A DNA stretch of 32,444 bases from Deltaproteobacteria bacterium (GTDB taxonomy: Bacteria; Desulfobacterota; Syntrophobacteria; Syntrophobacterales; Syntrophobacteraceae), in contig JAJYTC010000034.1 in NCBI GenBank assembly GCA_021793275.1, positions 1 to 32,444 of the forward strand, in the 5' to 3' direction. Below, piece after piece: positions 8,004 to 29,191 of this stretch; position 1 is the first letter of the stretch, and the number at the start of each line of letters is the position of its first letter. Under the pieces are notes generated by a model. The model saw nothing but the letters and a program-made list of their open reading frames with translations. It did not search any database and was not told where the DNA came from. Both the position numbers and the translations under genes were made by a program.

Positions 8004-9149
8004 TCATTGTCTTTTCCTCTCAACCTGTAACGCGGTATCAAGGACGAGCCGCGCCACCCTGTCGGATATGCCGCATGAGCCAAGTTGACCGCGAATTCGC
8101 CTCAGCTCAAGCCGTTGCTCTCTGAGCAGGCCCGGGTCTTTTAAAAGTCTCAGGGCGCATTCGGCCAAAAGCTGCCCCGTAGGCTCCTGCCGTGCAAATT
8201 CCGGCACTATTTCCCTGCCCGCTATCAAGTTCGGTAGCGCTGCGAACTCTGTTGTAACAAGCGCCTCGACGATCCGTCTGGTCACCCTCGAAACCTTGTA
8301 GAAAGCTATCATGGGGGTTTCCAGAATGGCGGCTTCAAGCGTCACCGTGCCGGTCTTTGTAAGGATCAGGTCGCAGGCCCTTACGACACTGTGAGTGTCG
8401 TTGCTCACAACCTGCACAGGCATCGACCGGCGGCTTACCCTGCTTTGCAGCTCCCGCGCATCGATCGAAGAAGCTACAGGCATTATGAACCTGGCCTCAG
8501 GCATTGATTTGAGGATACATCGCGCAGCCTCCATCAGCATGTCGAAAAAGCGCTCGACCTCCTTGCGCCTGCTTCCGGGCAAAAGCCCGACCAGAGGGCC
8601 GTCAAAACCATGATACACCTGATCGCACTGGGCCTTGTCCGGCAGGTTCTTCATCGAATCGACCAGAGGATGACCAACGTAGTCGACCTCGATTCCATAA
8701 GAGGCATAAAAATCTTTTTCGAAAGGCAGAATGACAGCCATCCCGTCCATGAGCCTTCCAATTTTTTTTACACGCTTTTTCCGCCACGCCCAGACTTGAG
8801 GGCTTATGTAGAAATAAACCCGGGCGCCGATTCTTTTGGCGAATCTGGCAAGGAAAAGATTGAAGTCGGGAAAGTCTATCAGAACGACTATAGAGGGACG
8901 GTTTGCAAGAAGATAGGACCTGATCTTCACCCATGCCCCATAGATCGACCGTATTTGCGCCGCCGCCTCCGAGATGCCGACAACGGAAATTTTTCGATTG
9001 TCAACGATGACCGGAACCCCGGCGGATTTCATATGCGGTCCCCCAAGACAGGAAAGGTTCGTTTGGGGGGCGATTGCCCATATCGCGCGGGCCAGATTAG
9101 CGCCGTGAAGATCTCCTGAGGCTTCCCCCGCGCTTATGAAAATTTCCAA
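8004..9149 (-). CDS. lpxB: lipid-A-disaccharide synthase
   Basis: Glycosyltransferase (GT19) that joins lipid X to UDP-diacylglucosamine to form the tetraacyl disaccharide of lipid A at the inner membrane surface. The 381-aa length is typical. Seen: ISAGEASGDLHGANLARAI at the N-terminus, VLIDFPDFNLFLA, YFYISPQVWAWRKKRVKKI, LPFEKDFYASYGIEVDYVGHPLVD, LLPGSRRKEVERF and the C-terminal LTKTGTVTLEAAI. The start is TTG, not ATG: the codon at 9149-9147 follows GGAG with good spacing and yields the family start MEIFISAGEASGD. It overlaps the end of the LpxI fusion gene by 16 nt, which suggests translational coupling. Last gene of the lipid A block, ending against convergent aroK. Confidence 0.96.
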   Translation of the reverse strand: MEIFISAGEASGDLHGANLARAIWAIAPQTNLSCLGGPHMKSAGVPVIVDNRKISVVGISEAAAQIRSIYGAWVKIRSYLLANRPSIVVLIDFPDFNLFLARFAKRIGARVYFYISPQVWAWRKKRVKKIGRLMDGMAVILPFEKDFYASYGIEVDYVGHPLVDSMKNLPDKAQCDQVYHGFDGPLVGLLPGSRRKEVERFFDMLMEAARCILKSMPEARFIMPVASSIDARELQSRVSRRSMPVQVVSNDTHSVVRACDLILTKTGTVTLEAAILETPMIAFYKVSRVTRRIVEALVTTEFAALPNLIAGREIVPEFARQEPTGQLLAECALRLLKDPGLLREQRLELRRIRGQLGSCGISDRVARLVLDTALQVERKRQ

Positions 9150-11104
9150 TTCACTGTCTCCGGCAAAACTTGTTTTGCGCGCATTTGCTCCTTGATAAGA
9201 CTCGATATTTCCAGGGCCACGGAAAGCGCCCGACGCCCCTGCTCCCCGTCGACTTCAGGCCGGCTGCCGGTCATCACGGCCTTCATAAATGAAGTGATCT
9301 CCGCTTCGAGGGAATCCTTCTCGACTATTTCGAAGTTTTCCAGCGAAAGCTGGGGAAATCCGTCCTCCCCCGGCTCGGCTTCCTTGTAGACAGCATAGGC
9401 GCGCTTTTCGGAATAGTCGGCCGAAAAATAGCAATTTTCCTGAAAGATGCGCAATTTCCGCATGCTTTTGATCGAAATTCTGCTTGCGGTAAGATTTGCC
9501 ACCGCCCCGTTTTCGAATTCCATTCGCACCGTCGCGATATCCGGAAGGCGGCTGAGCACGGAGACCCCCGAAGCATGCACGTTTTTAAGTGGCGCATTAA
9601 TGATGCTCAACACGATGTCAATATCGTGAATCATCAAATCGAGGACAACGTCAACTTCGAGGCCCCTTTCATTAAAAAGCGCAAGCCTGTCGGCTTCCAC
9701 GAACATCGGGTTGGACAGCCGATGCCGAATGGCCGTAAACGCCGAGTTAAACCGCTCGAGATGTCCAACCTGGAGAAGCGCCCCGCTCTTCCTGGCGATG
9801 GCGATAAGCTCGTCGGCTTCCTCCAGGTTCTTGGTCATCGGCTTTTCCAGAAGAACATGCACTCCCGCGGACAAAAATTCCCGCGCAATGGCAAAGTGCT
9901 GCTGCGTAGGCGTAACAATGCTGACCGCATCCACCTGGCCGATAAGTTCCCTGTAATCGGTCGAGGCCCGGGCCTTCACTTCTGATGCAACCTCCTCGGC
10001 CCGCCCGCCGTCGATGTCCACAATGGCAACGAGATCGGCTTCGGGAAGTCTGGCATATTTTTGAGCATGAAAACGACCCAGGTAGCCGACTCCGATTACA
10101 GCCGTACGTATTGCCCCCGGGCGCGGGCCGCGGACCAAAACACCCCTCGAAACCGCTGCCTCTTCTTTCGCGTGCTCGGCGGGGCGCGATCGGTTCGCAG
10201 CCGGCTGATTCTGTTCCAGGATGGCTAGCCCATCGTCGTCCTGATGTTCGCTCGCGTCAAACGCGTCGCTTTGCACCAGAATGGATATTCCAGCGGCATC
10301 GGCGGCGTCTATCGTCCTTTCACGGTCGAACAGCAGCGTTTTGCCTGCCTCGAGAACAAGCACGCGCGCGTTCACCCTCTTCATTACCTCTATGGTGCCC
10401 GTACCGGCGGATGGAACATCGAAGCGCATATCCTGCATGGGCTTGCTCACCTTGACGATTACCGCCCCTTCCCTGCAGAGCCGTCCACCACGCATAATGG
10501 TGGCGTCCGTGCCGTCTATGCCTTCAACTGCCAGCACGGCCCGGTTCTTGACAACCAGGCATTGACCGATATCCAGCCTTCCGATCGCCTTTGCCAGGGT
10601 CCATCCAAAACCGATGTCCGCCTGTTCCCGCCGGTTTGGCTTTCGTCTCGTCAGTATCCCTTCGGGCGCGAGAAGCTCAGGCAGGAAAATCGTGGAAGGC
10701 TGGATCAATATGCCTTCGGATTCCAACTCTTCGGCAAGCGCCCGCAGAAGAGAGTCGTCTTTTCTGTTTCTAAGCTTGTTGATAAACCGGACAGCCCTCC
10801 AATCAGGCCGTATTTTCGCATACATACGGGTCTTGTTGATTGCCCCCGCCATCGCCGCGTGGGTTATTCCCGCGCTCCTGAAAGCCCTGACAAGCCGGTT
10901 CAACTGTCCCAGTTTGAGCATGTGAAATTCATCGACATACTTGGCAAGCGTGGGATCGGTTTCCCCGTCAAAACCTACCGCAAACACCCGGACCGAAGCC
11001 TGACGGGCTGCGTGGGCAAAAAGAAGCGGAAACTGCCCGCTTCCGGCAATAAGCCCGACCTCCCTGATCCTGCCCTCCGAATCCCGATCATTTTCCAAAG
11101 ACAT
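9134..11104 (-). CDS. lpxI: LpxI (UDP-2,3-diacylglucosamine pyrophosphatase) fused to a Gfo/Idh/MocA oxidoreductase
   Basis: A 656-aa protein with two parts. Residues about 12-280 are LpxI, which hydrolyses UDP-2,3-diacylglucosamine to lipid X and UMP: GLIAGSGQFPLLFA, the NRRE/GWTLAKAIGRLDIGQ segment, and MRFDVPSAGTGTIE, whose aspartate (about 229) matches the catalytic position known in Caulobacter LpxI. Residues about 281-330 are a charged linker. Residues about 333-656 are a Gfo/Idh/MocA oxidoreductase with Rossmann loop VIGVGYLGRFHAQ and EKP at 420-422. LpxH is not in the window, so this domain probably supplies the activity between LpxA/LpxD and LpxB. The frame is continuous, with no internal ribosome site obvious at the domain boundary. 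The start overlaps the lpxA stop as TAATG. The role of the second domain is unknown. Confidence 0.92.
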   Translation of the reverse strand: MSLENDRDSEGRIREVGLIAGSGQFPLLFAHAARQASVRVFAVGFDGETDPTLAKYVDEFHMLKLGQLNRLVRAFRSAGITHAAMAGAINKTRMYAKIRPDWRAVRFINKLRNRKDDSLLRALAEELESEGILIQPSTIFLPELLAPEGILTRRKPNRREQADIGFGWTLAKAIGRLDIGQCLVVKNRAVLAVEGIDGTDATIMRGGRLCREGAVIVKVSKPMQDMRFDVPSAGTGTIEVMKRVNARVLVLEAGKTLLFDRERTIDAADAAGISILVQSDAFDASEHQDDDGLAILEQNQPAANRSRPAEHAKEEAAVSRGVLVRGPRPGAIRTAVIGVGYLGRFHAQKYARLPEADLVAIVDIDGGRAEEVASEVKARASTDYRELIGQVDAVSIVTPTQQHFAIAREFLSAGVHVLLEKPMTKNLEEADELIAIARKSGALLQVGHLERFNSAFTAIRHRLSNPMFVEADRLALFNERGLEVDVVLDLMIHDIDIVLSIINAPLKNVHASGVSVLSRLPDIATVRMEFENGAVANLTASRISIKSMRKLRIFQENCYFSADYSEKRAYAVYKEAEPGEDGFPQLSLENFEIVEKDSLEAEITSFMKAVMTGSRPEVDGEQGRRALSVALEISSLIKEQMRAKQVLPETVNWKFS

Positions 11105-11883
11105 TATCTGGTCAGACCTCGCTTGGAACCAGCCGTTACGAACTCGATCAGCCTTTCCACTTCCGGCAGCGGCTCAATTTCCTCGCGCACCTTTAGGACC
11201 GCTTCATTGAGAGTGAGCCCTGAGCGGAAAAATATTTTATAAAATTTCTTGATCGCCTGGATCGATTTTAGAGAAAAGCCGTGACGCTTGAGGCCGATAA
11301 GATTGGGCCCGAAGAGCGCAGCGCCCGTCGCGCCGGTGGCAAGCATGTAGGGGGCAATGTCCATGCGCACGCCGGAAAATCCGCCTATGCAACTGTATTC
11401 GCCTAACCTTACAAACTGGTGGACGGCGACGATTCCACCGACCACGGCATGCTCGCCCACTTCCACATGACCGCCAAGGGTTGCCGCATTCGCCAGCAAA
11501 GCCCCGTTTCCGATCTGACAGTCGTGAGCCACATGAGAATAGGCCATGAGAAAAACCCCATCGCCGACCCGTGTGACGCCATGGCCCCTCACGGTGCCTC
11601 GATGAACAGTGACGTATTCTCGAATGATGTTGTTGTTTCCAATAGATACGCCTGTACTCTCATCAGTGTACGTAAGGTCCTGCGGAGGAAGACCTATCGA
11701 GGCAAATGAGAATATGCGGTTGTTTTCTCCTATCGTAGTCCTGCCTTCAATCACTACGTGGTGCCCCACGACGGTCCCGGCGCCAATCGCTACGTCTGGA
11801 CCAATTATACTGTATGCCTCGACAGTAACGTCTTCGGCAAGTTCAGCATTCGGGGATATTATCGCAGTAGGGTGGATCGGCAT
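11104..11883 (-). CDS. lpxA: UDP-N-acetylglucosamine acyltransferase
   Basis: Transfers a 3-hydroxyacyl chain from ACP to the 3-OH of UDP-GlcNAc, the first step of lipid A synthesis. The 259-aa protein starts MPIHPTAIISPNAEL and shows the left-handed beta-helix hexapeptide pattern (repeated I/V/L-G-x-x pairs) through about residue 190, then the helical C-terminal domain. The catalytic histidine lies in AYSHVAHDCQIG. The C-terminal ending LIEFVTAGSKRGLTR is usual for the family. The frame is open 37 codons further, but MPIHP follows GGAGAAGAA, matching both the family start and a ribosome site. It lies 127 nt after fabZ and is coupled by one base to the LpxI fusion. The 3-OH acyl substrate length cannot be read from sequence with confidence. 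Confidence 0.96.
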   Translation of the reverse strand: MPIHPTAIISPNAELAEDVTVEAYSIIGPDVAIGAGTVVGHHVVIEGRTTIGENNRIFSFASIGLPPQDLTYTDESTGVSIGNNNIIREYVTVHRGTVRGHGVTRVGDGVFLMAYSHVAHDCQIGNGALLANAATLGGHVEVGEHAVVGGIVAVHQFVRLGEYSCIGGFSGVRMDIAPYMLATGATGAALFGPNLIGLKRHGFSLKSIQAIKKFYKIFFRSGLTLNEAVLKVREEIEPLPEVERLIEFVTAGSKRGLTR

Positions 11884-12010
11884 TTCTTCTCCATATTCCT
11901 CCATGCGGCAATCCGCGCGCGCAGACACCGGGGGGCGAAACACAACCCCGCATATCGGCGCACGGACATCCGGGCCGTGATTTCCACAGGGCACGGGGGA
12001 AGTTTCAGGA

Positions 12011-12433
12011 TTATGTCACGTTTGCCATCATTTCAGCTTCGGCTACCAGCACATCGTCGACAAAAGCTTCCCCGTACATTTTGAAAAAGCCGCCGCGCTG
12101 TTTTTGAAGCTTCACTTTCATCACCAACCGGTCTCCGGGGCGCACAGGTTTTCGAAACCGAACCTTGTCCACGCCGGCGAAATAAAAAGGCTTGCCCTTG
12201 AGTTCAGGCCATACCGTAAAGACAAGAATACCGCCGGTCTGGGCCATGGCTTCCAATATGAGCACGCCGGGCATGATCGGATCGTTCGGAAAATGTCCCT
12301 GAAAAAAAGGCTCGTTCACCGATACGTTCTTAATCCCCTCTATCGCGTCGGAGGAACATTCGACGATCCTTTCCACAAGGAGGAAAGGATAGCGGTGGGG
12401 AAGGATTTCTTTAATCCGGACAACGTCCATCAT
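12011..12433 (-). CDS. fabZ: 3-hydroxyacyl-ACP dehydratase FabZ
   Basis: Dehydrates 3-hydroxyacyl-ACP in fatty acid elongation and so competes with LpxA and LpxD for the same substrate, which explains its place between them. The 140-aa hot-dog protein has [34 protein letters not shown] (catalytic His and Glu) and [12 protein letters not shown]. Two ATGs stand in tandem at 12433 and 12430; the first is used because AGGAGG lies 12 nt before it. It overlaps the end of lpxD by 23 nt. Confidence 0.96.
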
Positions 12434-13505
12434 CCTTTTTCAGGACCTCCTCGATTCTGCTTACCTTTTCATCCAGTAGTTTCAAAGCCTTCTTGAGCCT
12501 TGGCAACCGCCTGATATCGCCGTATGTCTTGAACCATTCATCGTAAGAGACAGCCGGATAGCCGCCCATAACAACCTGGTTTTCCTTGACGGAATGATGA
12601 ATGCCCGCCTTTGCGGCAGCTTTTACCCCATCACCTATCTCGACATGGCCGGCTACTCCCACCTGTCCGGCCAACACCACGTTTTTCCCAACCTGAGTGC
12701 TGCCCGATATGCCGACCTGCGCAATTAGAAGAGTGTCTTCACCAACCACCACATTGTGGGCGACCATGACAAGGTTGTCGATTTTAACGCCGCGCTTTAT
12801 CCATGTCTTGCCGAAAGTTGCCCGATCAACGGTGGTGTTTGCCCCGATCTCGACGTCATCGTCGATCTGAACGATACCGATCTGGGGGATTTTTATGTGC
12901 TTTCCCCCTTCCTCCCGGGCATACCCGTAGCCATCCGCACCGATAACCGCGCCCGCGTGAATGATGACACGGTTTCCAACGATGCACCCGTTGAGAATGA
13001 CAGCCCTCGGATGTATAAGGCACCCCTGGCCGATTTGAACCTTCCTGCCCACGTATGCCGAAGGCCCGATAGTCGTTCCGCTCCCGATTCTGGAATCGTC
13101 TCCTATGTAGGCAAAAGGCCCCACCGAAACCCCATCTTCGAGAAATACCCGCTCACCAATAAAGGCTGCCGGATGGACCCCTGCAACCTCCGCCGAGGCC
13201 GGCGAAAACAATTGGGCGACTTTGGCAAAAGCGAGATACGGATTTTCAACAATAAGCAGATTGAATTCAACTTCCCGGAATTTCGGAGAAACAATCAGGG
13301 CCGACGCCCTGCAACCCGAAAGCAGATGAGTGTAGCGCGAATCAGTCAAAAAGCTCAACTCTCCGGCGCTTGCGCTATCAAGCGGCCCGATGCCGCTTAT
13401 ACTCACCTGCGGATCGCCTTTGACTTCAGCGCCCAGCAGGCGGCCAAGTTCGGCCAGTGAAAAAGGACCCTCATGCTTTTGATTATAGCTCACGCCAATT
13501 TCCAT
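12411..13505 (-). CDS. lpxD: UDP-3-O-acylglucosamine N-acyltransferase
   Basis: Adds the second 3-hydroxyacyl chain, to the 2-amino group of UDP-3-O-acylglucosamine. The 364-aa protein has an N-terminal uridine-binding domain ([16 protein letters not shown], then [16 protein letters not shown]), a long hexapeptide beta-helix from about residue 105 to 310, and a C-terminal helix ([24 protein letters not shown] with heptads typical of the trimer). The likely catalytic histidine is in [13 protein letters not shown]. The start region [17 protein letters not shown] is slightly longer than usual and the ribosome site is poor (CCGG directly before ATG), so a nearby alternative start is possible. A terminator-like hairpin lies between skp and this gene. 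Confidence 0.95.
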
Positions 13506-21245: not shown

Positions 21246-21322
<77 letters not shown>

Positions 21323-24696: not shown

Positions 24697-26154
24697 CTAA
24701 AAGCATATTTTTAGGTACTTCCCTTTTCCCGCCCTCTTCACAGATCCATTCTGTGCCAAACGAGAAAGTATCCTATAGACATTTTGCCGTGATTTTCCGG
24801 TAATTTGTGCAATGTGATTTATGGACGTGGGTTCGCCGTCCTCCATCGCTTCAATGACCAAGTTTTGCTCTTCGGAAACTATTATGGCCCCCGCATCGCC
24901 CAAGAGTGTCCAGCCGCCTGATGAATCCCGGTCGAGTGCAAATTCTTGCTCTTCAACGTCGCGGCCCCGGACGTAGAGCAAGCCCTTACCGGTTCGGTCC
25001 CTCTTGAGTATCAGGGCGGTATCCACCGCACCGGTCAATCCGGTCGAACCGGATATACAGTCAAAGGGGTCATCATCGGCGGCCATTTTCCGCAGGTGGT
25101 GAACGATTATGATTGCAACGTCCCCCGTGTCAGCCAATCCTTTAAGGCCCTCGACGGACTGGTAATCAACATCGTAAAGCGTTTGATTCGTGGGTTTGCG
25201 GCTTTTGAGCTTCGCCAAGGTATCGGCAATTACCAGCTTCACATCCCTGTGTTCTTCCAGCCATTTTTGAAGTAGCGGGATGCCGCCCTGGTCAATTCGC
25301 GGCCATGACGTGCAAATGTGAAGGTTCTCGGGCCAATTCTCGCCTATGCAGAGTCCGCCTATTCGGTTCTGTACTCGCCGTTCGTGATCCTCAAGGCACA
25401 GATAAAGGACGCCGATTTGTTTGACTGTGACCTTGCCGAAAGCCTTTCCGCCGCATGCACAAGCAAGGGCAATATCGGCCATTGCGAAGGACTTTCCGAC
25501 TTTGGCCTTACCTGTGAAAAGGGATGTCCCTTGCGGGATTATCCCCTCGACTATAAACTCAGGATCACGGAATTGCTTCTTTTGCAGCGCCGCCGCCGTA
25601 ATGACTCCCGGCATAGGTGGAAGCTTGAGCCGATTGTCTTTGTGGTGAGCGAAACTCCCGTTAGTGCTTTGTGCGGGCGGTTGCGTAAGATGCCCCGGTT
25701 CCCGTTCAATCGGTGGTGGTCCATCGTCAAGGGATTCCGCCTTTGGTTTGGGCGGCTTGTAGACTTCCCGGCATTCCGCAATGGCTTTATCCAAGGTACG
25801 ATTCCGATAGCCCGCCCGGTCCCATTTTTTCCGGTAAAGTCCGGATCGCCGGAAAAGCCGGTCCATTCGCTCCTTGTCGCACCCGGCCCAAAAAGCGTAC
25901 ATGCTGCAAAGGGCCAGGTCGGCTTCTGACTGTGAAGCATATCCCGCGCCTTTCCAGTCGCCTGCGTCGTGGAGTTGCGCGAACACGCCGCCATTCACTG
26001 AGCCTCGGGCACGTGCGAGCAACTCTCCATCGTCAAGATCCAAAGGTTCAGCCGGCAAAGCCGGACGCGGTTTATCATCCTGGTCTTCGTCCGGCCATAT
26101 TTCGGCCAGAATAAGCCCCAGTTCCGCCTGACATTCCCTAATCGCCGTCCGCAT
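24697..26154 (-). CDS. RepA-type AAA replicative helicase with C-terminal winged HTH
   Basis: A 485-aa protein. Residues 1-150 continue a primase-helicase architecture: DLDDGELLARARGSVNGGVFAQL and the block LALCSMYAFWAGCDKERMDRLFRRSGLYRKKWD. Residues about 170-410 are a RecA-like helicase of the AAA_25/RepA group, with Walker A FTGKAKVGKSFA and Walker B VKLVIADTLAKL. The last 55 residues form a winged HTH (INHIAQITGKSRQNVYRILSRLAQ). It should unwind DNA for replication of the element. Its ATG lies inside the 3' end of the primase gene, overlapping it by 17 nt in another frame, while in related proteins I believe the two are one chain. The GTTTAC array follows its stop codon. Confidence 0.85.
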   Translation of the reverse strand: MRTAIRECQAELGLILAEIWPDEDQDDKPRPALPAEPLDLDDGELLARARGSVNGGVFAQLHDAGDWKGAGYASQSEADLALCSMYAFWAGCDKERMDRLFRRSGLYRKKWDRAGYRNRTLDKAIAECREVYKPPKPKAESLDDGPPPIEREPGHLTQPPAQSTNGSFAHHKDNRLKLPPMPGVITAAALQKKQFRDPEFIVEGIIPQGTSLFTGKAKVGKSFAMADIALACACGGKAFGKVTVKQIGVLYLCLEDHERRVQNRIGGLCIGENWPENLHICTSWPRIDQGGIPLLQKWLEEHRDVKLVIADTLAKLKSRKPTNQTLYDVDYQSVEGLKGLADTGDVAIIIVHHLRKMAADDDPFDCISGSTGLTGAVDTALILKRDRTGKGLLYVRGRDVEEQEFALDRDSSGGWTLLGDAGAIIVSEEQNLVIEAMEDGEPTSINHIAQITGKSRQNVYRILSRLAQNGSVKRAGKGKYLKICF

Positions 26155-26623
26155 TGAACACCTTTCCTGTGAATGTGAAAAAGCGGTCCCCGTCGTAAAC
26201 TTCGATATGGCCTTTCCTGCAATGGGTGAAGCCGTCCGGCTTCCGGCCCTTGACGATAATGTGCAGGCCGGTCCCGCTGGGCGTTATTTCCGTGTACGAC
26301 TTGAGCAGGTCAACCCATCGCCGCGCCCAAGGTTCCAGTACGCCGGTTTCCGGGTCGAGACACTTGTCCAGGTCAATTCCTGTGAACGGGTCCGATTCGC
26401 TGAACACAAAGCCGATACCGTCAAGCTTGTCGTTGTCCATTCTAATGAGCGCTTCCTGAATGCTCGCCCAGGTCGCCGGGTCCGTAGGGTCTGCATTCCC
26501 GCCGGTCGCAGGGTCTTTCGGAGTCTTGGTGAGCTTGCCTTTCCGGGTTTCGTACTTCCAGGCTACCCATTGCCGCCGATCTTTCATTTCGCTGGGGATG
26601 TTACCGACAAGTGGCGGATTCAT
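26138..26623 (-). CDS. primase/polymerase domain protein (N-terminal half of primase-helicase)
   Basis: A 161-aa protein with the order of a phage PrimPol-type N-terminal domain: QWVAWKYETRKGKLTKTPKD, then DGIGFVFSESDPFTGIDLDK (acidic residues likely binding metal), EITPSGTGLHIIVKG and HIEVYDGDRFFTFTGKVF. It should make primers for replication of the element. It ends FNADGD where relatives run on into the helicase region, and the helicase gene starts within its last 17 nt. Its ATG shares four bases (ATGA) with the stop of the AlpA-like gene, so the three genes are translationally coupled. Whether this short form is active alone is unknown. Confidence 0.8.
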   Translation of the reverse strand: MNPPLVGNIPSEMKDRRQWVAWKYETRKGKLTKTPKDPATGGNADPTDPATWASIQEALIRMDNDKLDGIGFVFSESDPFTGIDLDKCLDPETGVLEPWARRWVDLLKSYTEITPSGTGLHIIVKGRKPDGFTHCRKGHIEVYDGDRFFTFTGKVFNADGD

Positions 26624-26802
26624 TGCAACCTGCCCTTTTCGGTCAATTCCTGGAATTTGCTCAAGTCGATAAACAAACTCCCTCCGATTTTCACGAACAA
26701 GCCCGGATGTCTTTGTAAGTGGACTTGCTTATAAGCCCAGCTTTTGGTGAATGGGAAGTTTTCGCCTGGTTTGATTGCCTTGACTGCAAGTAGGTTGCTC
26801 AT
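26620..26802 (-). CDS. AlpA-like small HTH regulator
   Basis: A 60-aa protein: MSNLLAVKAIKPGENFPFTK, SWAYKQVHLQRHPGLFVKIG and GSLFIDLSKFQELTEKG. The pattern (turn, recognition helix, then a short wing with F-IDLSKF) is that of AlpA/HTH_17 proteins, which activate excision or early genes in phages and satellites. The start at 26802 is used because AAAGGCGAAGCC precedes it and homologues start here; the frame is open to 26883 without a ribosome site. It overlaps the primase gene by four bases. A direct-repeat region directly upstream could be its own operator. Confidence 0.72.
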   Translation of the reverse strand: MSNLLAVKAIKPGENFPFTKSWAYKQVHLQRHPGLFVKIGGSLFIDLSKFQELTEKGRLQ

Positions 26803-26891
26803 GGCTTCGCCTTTCTTCAGTAAGAATTTGTCGATTTTGTTCGACATGGGAAATTTTACCAAAGGCAAAGACAGAAAGGGCACCTATCCAA

Positions 26892-26994
26892 CCTATAGGT
26901 GGTGCGTAGGTGCTATTTTTTTATCTGCCTGATTTGGCTTCGAAAAAGATAGGAAAATGTGCCCATAGGTTGTGCGTAGGTGCTATTTTTTTAT
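26892..26994. repeat. 33-bp direct repeat upstream of the replication operon
   Basis: 26892-26924 and 26962-26994 are identical at 31 of 33 positions, 70 bp apart. The shared core is GTGCGTAGGTGCTATTTTTT. The first copy sits in a dyad (GCACCTA at 26880-26886 with TAGGTGC at 26907-26913, palindrome CCTATAGG between). The second copy runs into the 3' end of the 267-aa gene. The position suggests an operator for the AlpA-primase-helicase genes. Confidence 0.75.
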
Positions 26995-27786
26995 GAGTTC
27001 ATCATAAAAGTCTTGCAAATTCGGAACGGTGAATCCTTCCCTTTGCAAGAGCTTTTGCAACAAACGGCTTACAAAATCTCTGCGGCTATGCGAAGGGTCC
27101 ATATTGAAAAGGTCTAAAGTCAGGTCATCCCTGGTGATAGGTTCATATTTTTTGGGTGCATCGTCGAAGACAGCCAACGCCGTTTGCAGGCAGTCCTCAG
27201 CTTTCTGTGACTTAAGAGACGGGTGCTCTTTCATTGTAAGCTTGTAGAGGCTTTCCACAATCGGCTTTAGTTTCCTGCCGCATTCGATTGCATCTGTCGT
27301 AAGACGCTGAGGCTTGAAACCGATCGGTTCTTTTTCCCGATCTTGCTCTGAAGCTTCGGCCACTGGTTCGGATGCAGCCTTTGTACGTTCCGCGCTATTC
27401 TCAAGAGCCTTCCTGGGGTACTTCAACCGCAAATCCATTGAAAGGCACTGAAAAACTTGATTTCTTCTGGATAGGGAAGGTATCTCATCTATCGGGAGAA
27501 GCCTCACGATTTCTTCGAGTTTGAATAAGCAATTCAGGTATTCTTTATTCCTTTCGGGCTTGCAGGGTTTTGCATTCCTGTCGTAAGTCTGAAGATGGTT
27601 GTCCAGGACAAACGCAAGAAAATCCGCTTCCAAAAGATTCCAAAACCCTACTATAAAACCTCCCGAAATCCAGCCTTTCCTTAGTAATCCGGGCTCGGGA
27701 TTGAACACTGGAGACATCTCTGTATCTGGTGGAGGGATTGGATGAGTATCACCAGTACTTGGCAGTTCGCGTTTCTCTTCGGACAT
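26983..27786 (-). CDS. hypothetical protein, 267 aa
   Basis: Not recognised. From the chosen start MSEEKRELPS it has a Pro-rich N-terminus, a hydrophobic stretch (GFIVGFWNLLEADFLAFVLD) that looks like a buried helix rather than a membrane segment, a charged linker (about residues 130-160, many E/A/K) and a helical C-terminal part ending DFVSRLLQKLLQREGFTVPN with LQDFYDELIKK. AGGAGG stands 9 nt before the ATG, so 27786 is preferred to the longer frame at 27876. It is first after the integrase in the leftward gene order and may be element-specific. Confidence 0.7.
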   Translation of the reverse strand: MSEEKRELPSTGDTHPIPPPDTEMSPVFNPEPGLLRKGWISGGFIVGFWNLLEADFLAFVLDNHLQTYDRNAKPCKPERNKEYLNCLFKLEEIVRLLPIDEIPSLSRRNQVFQCLSMDLRLKYPRKALENSAERTKAASEPVAEASEQDREKEPIGFKPQRLTTDAIECGRKLKPIVESLYKLTMKEHPSLKSQKAEDCLQTALAVFDDAPKKYEPITRDDLTLDLFNMDPSHSRRDFVSRLLQKLLQREGFTVPNLQDFYDELIKK

Positions 27787-27898
27787 TTTATTGCGCCTCC
27801 TGTGCGCAGCTCCTGAAGTGGTCCAGGGAAGGCCGGTCAGGAGTCCCAGCTTTTCGAGCAGGTTCATGACGCCCACCCTATCCCTGGAAGTTGGATTA

Positions 27899-29038
27899 TC
27901 ATTTCACAATCTTCAATACCTGCGCCTGCTTCGGTGTGAGCAGCTCGCCGGACTTTAAAGCGGCTTCCCTTACCGCATCCGGCCTTAAATGCGCGTAACG
28001 CTGCGTGGTGCTCATGTCTTTGTGTGTGAGCAGTTCCCGGACCACGGTTAAGTCAATACCACTGGAAACTAGCATCGAGGCGAAATGATGTCGCAGACCA
28101 TGAAGCCGGAAGTCCGCTGGCAGGTCCGCCGCCTTCCTGATTCTTTCCCACGGTCCCTTGAAGTCTGTCCGCTGCTTGTCTTTCCTGCCCGGAAAAACCA
28201 AGTCACATGTGACGGAGAGATCCCGGATCGTATCAAGGGCTTGAGCACTTACGCTGATCGTGGTCGTTTTGCCGCCCTTCGGATTCCTTAGAGTCACAGA
28301 GCCGCGCTCAAAATCAACATCATTCCAGGCAAGCCGGAAGAGTTCGCCGCGCCTCATACCTGTGAACATGGCGAACTTGACGAAAGCCGCCGATTCCCGG
28401 CAGGGCCAGTTCTCCAGGGTATCGAGCAGCCGCCGCGCCTCATCATCGGAAAGCATCTCTGTTTTCTGGTTATCGACTTTCGGCATGGAAACAGAATCAA
28501 CCGGGTTCTTGCCGTCATAGAGGTTCCACTTCCGGGCGAGGTTGAATACCCGCCGCATAATGACAATCTGGTGCTTTATCGTCTGCGCCGCAAAAGGTGT
28601 CCCGCGAACGCTCTTGCCCTTCTTAAGCTCTGTTTTCATCTTCTCGATGTCGAATGCGGTAATATCTGCAAGCGCTCTGGAGCCAAAGCGCGGTTCAATA
28701 TGCGCCCGGTAATAATATTCGTCGTCGCGCCATGACTTCTTATGCTCTTTGGCCCAAGGAAGATATTTCCCCCATACGTCGCCCAGGGTAATCGGCCTAT
28801 CCTGTGCCCGGTGGTCGGCAATGTCAAATTCGTCCCGGACCAAATCACCCTTGAGCGCCGCTTCGACTTCGCGGGCTATGGTGAGATTATCGACCACGCG
28901 GCTTATCCTCTTGCCTTTCACCTGGACACGGACACGATATTTCCTAACCCGTGTGAAGGTCGTCCCGCACTTCGAGCATTTCTTAGAGTTCAGCCCGTTT
29001 GACGTTTTGCACTCGGTGCAGAAAATCTCGATTGCCAT
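27899..29038 (-). CDS. tyrosine integrase with N-terminal zinc ribbon
   Basis: A 379-aa phage-type integrase that joins attP on the circular element to attB in tRNA-Arg. Residues about 1-35 hold a zinc ribbon (CTECKTSNGLNSKKCSKCG), which some integrase groups carry ahead of the arm- or core-binding region. The core-binding SAM-like domain spans about 70-180 and the catalytic domain about 190-375. The catalytic set is visible: TGMRRGELFRLAW, HGLRHHFAS, LLTHKD and TTQRYAHLRPD with the nucleophile tyrosine. The start at 29038 follows AAGAGG; the longer frame to 29098 crosses the subterminal repeat. It lies next to attR and reads away from it, normal for such elements, so the repeat at 29057-29083 sits over its promoter. 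Confidence 0.94.
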   Translation of the reverse strand: MAIEIFCTECKTSNGLNSKKCSKCGTTFTRVRKYRVRVQVKGKRISRVVDNLTIAREVEAALKGDLVRDEFDIADHRAQDRPITLGDVWGKYLPWAKEHKKSWRDDEYYYRAHIEPRFGSRALADITAFDIEKMKTELKKGKSVRGTPFAAQTIKHQIVIMRRVFNLARKWNLYDGKNPVDSVSMPKVDNQKTEMLSDDEARRLLDTLENWPCRESAAFVKFAMFTGMRRGELFRLAWNDVDFERGSVTLRNPKGGKTTTISVSAQALDTIRDLSVTCDLVFPGRKDKQRTDFKGPWERIRKAADLPADFRLHGLRHHFASMLVSSGIDLTVVRELLTHKDMSTTQRYAHLRPDAVREAALKSGELLTPKQAQVLKIVK

Positions 29039-29056
29039 AGCTAACCTCTTGATTCC

Positions 29057-29083
29057 TGGTGTCCACATAGTGTCCACGGATGC
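29057..29083. repeat. right copy of 27-bp subterminal direct repeat
   Basis: Identical to 21368-21394 and in the same orientation. It lies 19 bp upstream of the integrase start, so protein bound here could also repress the integrase gene. Confidence 0.85.
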
Positions 29084-29191
29084 GGAAAAAGGCGTCAAAA
29101 ACCGTCTTCCAACGTAACGACATAAATACCCTACAACCCTTATTCTGTAAAGGTTTATCTTAAGAACTGAAAAATTGTAAAAAGGCTTTTA

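Follow-up and report, generated by a model that had tools for sequence, protein, structure and literature searches.

What does it mean for a cell that two enzymes of lipid A synthesis are made as one protein? The question is raised by the lipid A (lpx) operon on contig JAJYTC010000034.1 of a Syntrophobacteraceae genome (assembly GCA_021793275.1), in which an LpxI domain and an oxidoreductase of the Gfo/Idh/MocA family share a reading frame; the whole stretch of 32,444 nucleotides that was analysed is referred to as the window. The fusion is a real, conserved joining of two known types of lipid A enzyme. The reading that we favour, with somewhat better than even confidence, is that of a bifunctional LpxI/GnnA enzyme serving the synthesis of lipid A that contains diaminoglucose.

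The frame has 656 codons and an ATG start. It is uninterrupted and was described as such in the original prediction, which left unstated that it lies on the minus strand; the plus strand across the same positions is interrupted by stops. Pfam assigns LpxI_N to residues 16–144 (E-value 9e-41), LpxI_C to 147–275 (6e-49), GFO_IDH_MocA to 332–448 (4e-32) and GFO_IDH_MocA_C3 to 485–553, which confirms an LpxI followed by a complete Gfo/Idh enzyme. The parts are:

9134..11104, minus strand: fused lpxI::gfo (GnnA-like), 656 residues, ATG start; based on the open reading frame (ORF), Pfam and the one-frame state conserved among relatives.
10280..11059, minus strand: LpxI half, residues 16–275; based on Pfam LpxI_N and LpxI_C and PDB entry 4ggm.
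10112..10276, minus strand: linker of about 55 residues, residues 277–331; compared across 45 fused ORFs.
9185..10111, minus strand: Gfo/Idh/MocA half, residues 332–640, GnnA-like, a predicted UDP-N-acetylglucosamine (UDP-GlcNAc) 3-dehydrogenase; based on Pfam, the PDB match and a model.

Both halves occur in one frame at 45 loci, the window included, in five families (f1, f2, f3, f5 and f6) of one class. The phylum is taken to be Desulfobacterota on the basis of close neighbours in a tree of Gfo rows, such as Desulfogranum marinum (L183) and a Desulfococcaceae metagenome-assembled genome (L225). The original prediction would have been undone if all close relatives had two genes; these loci show the opposite. 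The fusion protein gave matches in 55 of 59 relatives (E ≤ 0.001), some through Gfo paralogs alone. An LpxI/Gfo match (E ≤ 1e-40) was present in 355 of 395 genomes of a phylum sample, in which uninterrupted full-length single matches were, among the best matches listed, confined to the order of the window; long matches in G357, G080 and G072 hold stops and correspond to separate ORFs. Both halves are under purifying selection: the ratio of nonsynonymous to synonymous substitution rates (dN/dS), determined in seven pairs, was 0.01–0.05 for the LpxI half and 0.04–0.11 for the Gfo half. Because 45 fused frames are open and dN/dS is 0.01–0.11 over both halves, the fusion is genuine, neither a chance event nor an assembly error.

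The gene arrangement was compared at 92 loci of the phylum, which were chosen by hand and not at random (same-place duplicates and the contig-end fragment L051 were dropped), and at a sample of 80 loci from named genomes, taken among the matches listed; no Acidithiobacillus-titled locus was among the matches listed in the named-genome scan. The 92 loci divide into 45 with the fusion, 25 with separate adjacent lpxI and gfo genes, and 22 with gfo but no adjacent lpxI. The statement in the original prediction that relatives carry the two as separate neighbours is thus correct for 25 loci, and in other members of the phylum such genes lie between lpxA and lpxB. The phylum and named loci together contain 39 adjacent pairs that are not fused. 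In 29 of these, the distance between the lpxI stop and the first conserved residue of Gfo is −4 to 58 bases; in the remaining pairs it is up to 420 bases. This short spacing is what would be expected if near-overlapping genes had merged when a stop was lost and the domains worked as before, the fusion then having no functional meaning, an explanation compatible with either view of what the Gfo half does. The linker, which is enriched in Ala, Pro and charged residues and poorly conserved, is variable, in keeping with this, and a tree of 102 Gfo rows, which unites f1–f3 with f6 in a single clade and sets f5 apart on weak support, fits one or two origins of the fusion. However, the fused state has been retained over five families, and the linker, with 31–57 residues and a median of 49 in the 45 fused ORFs, is never shorter than 31. 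Moreover, among genomes of the class in which both genes were seen, G039 (family f4) is the only one with lpxI and gfo separate. We regard a merger without functional meaning as quite possible, short of probable.

A strong Shine-Dalgarno sequence with an in-frame start was found in none of the 45 fused ORFs within the last 45 codons before the Gfo half. The idea that an internal start yields the Gfo half as a protein of its own was rejected on this count, which concerns strong signals and leaves weaker ones possible; one of these, a TTG after GAGGGG, is visible by eye in the window. The gene order is another at locus L116 (G144), where one ORF has both fabZ and lpxA matches and is followed by gfo (642-aa open frame), lpxI and lpxB. 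Two genomes of genus g21 (G040 and G044) gave no match for LpxI or the lpx-type Gfo, though other members of the genus have the fusion; this may reflect loss or an assembly gap.

The only PDB matches of the LpxI half are 4ggm (E 1e-33) and 4j6e, which we take to be the UDP-2,3-diacylglucosamine pyrophosphatase LpxI of Caulobacter. Both LpxI Pfam domains score above their gathering thresholds over the full length. The Asp at which 4ggm and 4j6e differ, presumably the catalytic D225 of the Caulobacter enzyme, corresponds to D229 of the window protein, and the column holds Asp in 47 of 47 rows (Caulobacter LpxI, the window and 45 fused proteins). The half shares with these structures both domains, the catalytic residue and the gene position between lpxA and lpxB; it differs in bearing a second enzyme at its C-terminus and in scoring 137.4 bits against the 400-bit cut-off of the NCBIfam equivalog NF047836, a cut-off that is an annotation threshold and not a biochemical feature. 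The LpxI half is predicted to cleave UDP-2,3-diacylglucosamine to lipid X.

For the Gfo half, the nearest PDB chain is 7bvj (238 bits versus 85 for the next), entitled UDP-N-acetylglucosamine 3-dehydrogenase GnnA from Acidithiobacillus ferrooxidans. An AlphaFold2 model of this half (predicted local distance difference test score, pLDDT, 94) superimposed on 7bvj with a Z-score of 41.2 and a root-mean-square deviation of 1.2 over 301 residues, the next non-GnnA entry having a Z-score of 34.9; Foldseek was in agreement. Identity to GnnA is 42%, a level matched by the Gfo proteins of the phylum that are gnnB-linked (41–42%). The best NCBIfam model for the half is NF040723 (archaeal UDP-GlcNAc 3-dehydrogenase), at 197 bits versus an annotation threshold of 450. 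The motifs EKP (residues 420–422) and DLMIHD (489–494) are present in the fusion, and EKP and DxxxHD are invariant in the 45 fused rows. In an alignment of GnnA with 45 fused, 33 gnnB-linked and 94 other rows, the invariant columns, which are the catalytic ones and many more, include E90, K91, P92, R144, R151, D160, H164, D165, D193, S212, R213 and R220 (chain numbering). The half thus shares with GnnA (7bvj/7bvk) the fold, the active-site columns and a gene position in an lpx operon, whereas it is joined to LpxI, lacks an adjacent GnnB and has a loop (P147/P150/D154 in GnnA) that is mostly L/E/E. WlbA/WbpB and WbpE, which carry out C3 oxidation and amination of UDP-GlcNAc uronate, belong to the same superfamilies and use the same C3 chemistry, but the Gfo half is far closer to GnnA than to WlbA (3q2k, Z-score 33.1). 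The precedent of GnnA, named in the original prediction, therefore holds, and the analogy is well supported by sequence and model; by it, the Gfo half would oxidise UDP-GlcNAc at C3 in an NAD+-dependent reaction.

The fusion stands in a minus-strand gene run of the order lysS, lolC/E, lolD, bamA, ompH/skp-like, lpxD, fabZ, lpxA, the fusion, lpxB and DUF374. Its neighbours with lipid A functions are:

11104..11994, minus strand: lpxA, directly upstream, its stop codon overlapping the ATG of the fusion; based on coordinates and Pfam/NCBIfam.
8004..9149, minus strand: lpxB, directly downstream, its frame (TTG start) overlapping the end of the fusion by 16 bases.
12011..12433, minus strand: fabZ, in the same gene run.
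12411..13505, minus strand: lpxD, in the same gene run.

In the scheme that we favour, the in-frame joining of two neighbouring operon genes would have given one bifunctional lipid A enzyme. The N-terminal LpxI half would hydrolyse UDP-2,3-diacylglucosamine to lipid X, and the C-terminal GnnA half would oxidise the 3-OH of UDP-GlcNAc with NAD+ to a 3-keto sugar. The next enzyme in most relatives would be an aminotransferase whose gene lies elsewhere, with a WbpE-like clade of DegT proteins as the best candidate; it would convert the keto sugar to the 3-amino sugar UDP-GlcNAc3N, and the resulting lipid A would contain 2,3-diamino-2,3-dideoxyglucose with amide-linked 3-acyl chains. GnnA and GnnB of Acidithiobacillus reportedly make UDP-GlcNAc3N for diaminoglucose lipid A in this way. 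The substrate of GnnA, UDP-GlcNAc, stands ahead of LpxA in the pathway, and the LpxI step follows that of LpxD. With the two halves at non-consecutive steps, a fixed ratio or co-location of the enzymes is more likely than channelling. PMC8036547 names Caulobacter, Legionella pneumophila and Brucella abortus among species with a 2,3-diaminoglucose lipid A backbone; Caulobacter, with LpxI and such a lipid A, offers a precedent for LpxI acting on these precursors. Capnocytophaga, according to PMC3342949, has gnnA, gnnB and a hybrid backbone.

The scheme needs a partner for the GnnA half. The phylum itself contains lpx-linked gnnA-gnnB pairs: a gnnB-like DegT gene follows gfo at 9 of 92 phylum loci and at 25 of 80 named loci. 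A profile (A1) built from seven gfo-linked GnnB-like proteins set the linked GnnB class at 562 bits or more, with a gap down to 502. No member was found in the 45 genomes of the class that were searched (G004 left out, the partial fusions G021 and G054 included), the best score being 461 bits. A cut-off of 560 bits was not kept as a general criterion for GnnB, as Legionella bononiensis scores at most 397. A tree of 79 DegT proteins contained a second, lpx-unlinked clade with the proteins of Legionella and Gluconobacter and the DegT of most fused genomes; Legionella, Gluconobacter and others in this clade bear this type of Gfo without adjacent gnnB. In a larger tree the second clade broadly tracks families f1–f3, and it is vertically inherited. 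The genes around it have housekeeping functions (purL-like in f2, AMMECR1-like in f1, labels assigned by eye and not by family search), and the PDB entries closest to it are 4qgr, 8e75 and WbpE (341 bits). With a profile of this clade (A3), scores in genomes of the class form two groups, one from 518 bits upwards and one reaching no higher than 382 bits, excluding fragments in G019 and G021. By this measure the clade is present in 28 of the 45 fused genomes (16 of 25 in f1, 7 of 7 in f2, 5 of 5 in f3, 0 of 6 in f5 and 0 of 2 in f6).

The unlinked, WbpE-like clade could replace GnnB. That the fused group simply does without GnnB is a view weakened by this clade. The view that the clade simply is GnnB loses ground in turn, since the clade is patchily distributed and also turns up in genomes that gave no LpxI/Gfo match. 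The original prediction had called the GnnB partner absent. This is true of the operon, whereas the genome of the window has two other DegT proteins, one on C93 (at 454-1605) and one on C237, which fall outside both the linked class and the second clade (the two matches score 354 and 311 bits), and 28 of 45 fused genomes have the unlinked candidate. One of the A3 proteins, an aminotransferase encoded at G024:C1:1014905-1016068, has, like its orthologs, a WbpE-like sequence with the motif FFPAKPLG, which we take to lie at the pyridoxal phosphate lysine; in this order it is an unassigned core sugar aminotransferase.

Several results weigh against the bifunctional scheme. Between the fusion and lpxB no GnnB was found in the window, and a linked GnnB was found at 0 of 45 fused loci. 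The second clade is absent from 17 of the 45 fused genomes, including that of the window (best 342 bits), and is present (about 470 bits or more) in 7 of 20 listed genomes without an LpxI/Gfo match. Five fused genomes had no A1 match (G014, G022, G051, G025 and G042); a PF01041 match at E ≤ 1e-15 was found in none of G014, G022 and G051, and the PF01041 matches of G025 and G042 are weak or partial. The lpx-linked GnnB class occurs in 26 of 395 phylum genomes, versus 355 of 395 with an LpxI/Gfo match. LpxA offered no help: its active-site columns are the same in both groups compared and the remaining differences are confounded by ancestry, and LpxA residues were rejected as a marker of UDP-GlcNAc3N use for lack of a usable signal. 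Finally, the loop residues P147, P150 and D154 of GnnA are replaced by L, E and E in 28, 45 and 40 of the 45 fused rows, respectively, and the substrate may have shifted with them.

The much wider occurrence of Gfo than of GnnB in lpx operons also fits a different role for the Gfo half, that of a GnnA-type C3 dehydrogenase with no transamination after it. Such an enzyme would yield a 3-keto or C3-epimerised UDP-sugar, or keep UDP-GlcNAc in balance with NAD(H) ahead of LpxA, GnnB having been added in some lineages only. G014 and G022 are examples: they have the fusion, no DegT was found in them, the dN/dS of their Gfo half is 0.063 and all active-site residues are kept. However, they are just two assemblies of one genus (g5), 94 and 87% complete, and an aminotransferase of another family could serve. 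To our knowledge, no enzyme works in this way in lipid A synthesis, which also counts against the idea, and we consider it rather unlikely. Taken further, the GnnA of lpx operons might be wider in lipid A synthesis than its transaminase. Where DegT is lacking, it might act free of amination, either forming the 3-keto or C3-epimerised UDP-sugar or withdrawing UDP-GlcNAc in an NAD(H)-dependent manner and so setting the flux, in the same protein as the LpxI step. We hold this proposal to be doubtful; if it is true with a 3-keto or C3-epimerised product, the lipid A backbone would be an undescribed one. At nine loci (L045, L124, L126, L128, L135, L137, L144, L145 and L149) the order is lpxA-gfo-lpxB without intervening lpxI or gnnB, and a GnnA-like gene persists there with neither gene beside it.

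The original prediction had the dehydrogenase acting on a lipid A intermediate or UDP-sugar near the LpxI step. One such reaction would be an oxidation at C4 or C6 with lipid X or UDP-2,3-diacylglucosamine as the substrate. The joining to LpxI, the lpxI-gfo adjacency at 25 of 92 phylum loci and the loop changes speak for this, but the rest of the GnnA active site is unchanged, UDP-GlcNAc precedes LpxA and the 3-OH that GnnA targets is blocked in acylated intermediates. In addition, gfo stands without adjacent lpxI at 22 of the 92 loci, and a gnnB-like gene is present at 8 of these 22; it is thus the lpx operon, and not LpxI, with which gfo is associated. The claim was not upheld, and we judge action on a later intermediate improbable. 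An assembly or frame error, for which no support was found even though the assembly of the window is fragmented (278 contigs), was rejected as next to impossible, since the identical open-frame arrangement recurs at 45 loci, including the single-contig genomes G015 and G024.

Under the bifunctional LpxI/GnnA reading, a core step of the pathway would be coupled to one that is optional and alters the backbone, and the fusion provides a single gene for testing whether these bacteria make diaminoglucose lipid A. GnnA-like and GnnB-like genes differ widely in occurrence, which implies that equating the presence of gnnA with diaminoglucose lipid A may mislead in many genomes, or else that aminotransferases encoded away from the operon have escaped notice. 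The interest lies in how the GnnA half functions in genomes in which no aminotransferase was found. A literature search, with most subscription papers outside its reach, found no publication on an LpxI fusion, and no description of the lipid A of this bacterial group was found in the searchable literature. Fused lipid A genes as such are already known, as PMC3087551 describes lpxC/fabZ fusions and places lpxI between lpxA and lpxB.

Elsewhere in the window, a stretch at 24697-29098 (minus strand), a few kb upstream of lysS, encodes an AAA_25/NrS-1 primase-like protein, unassigned ORFs and a phage integrase. It looks like an integrated element, and was noted together with a tRNA-Arg gene at 21246-21322 on the plus strand.

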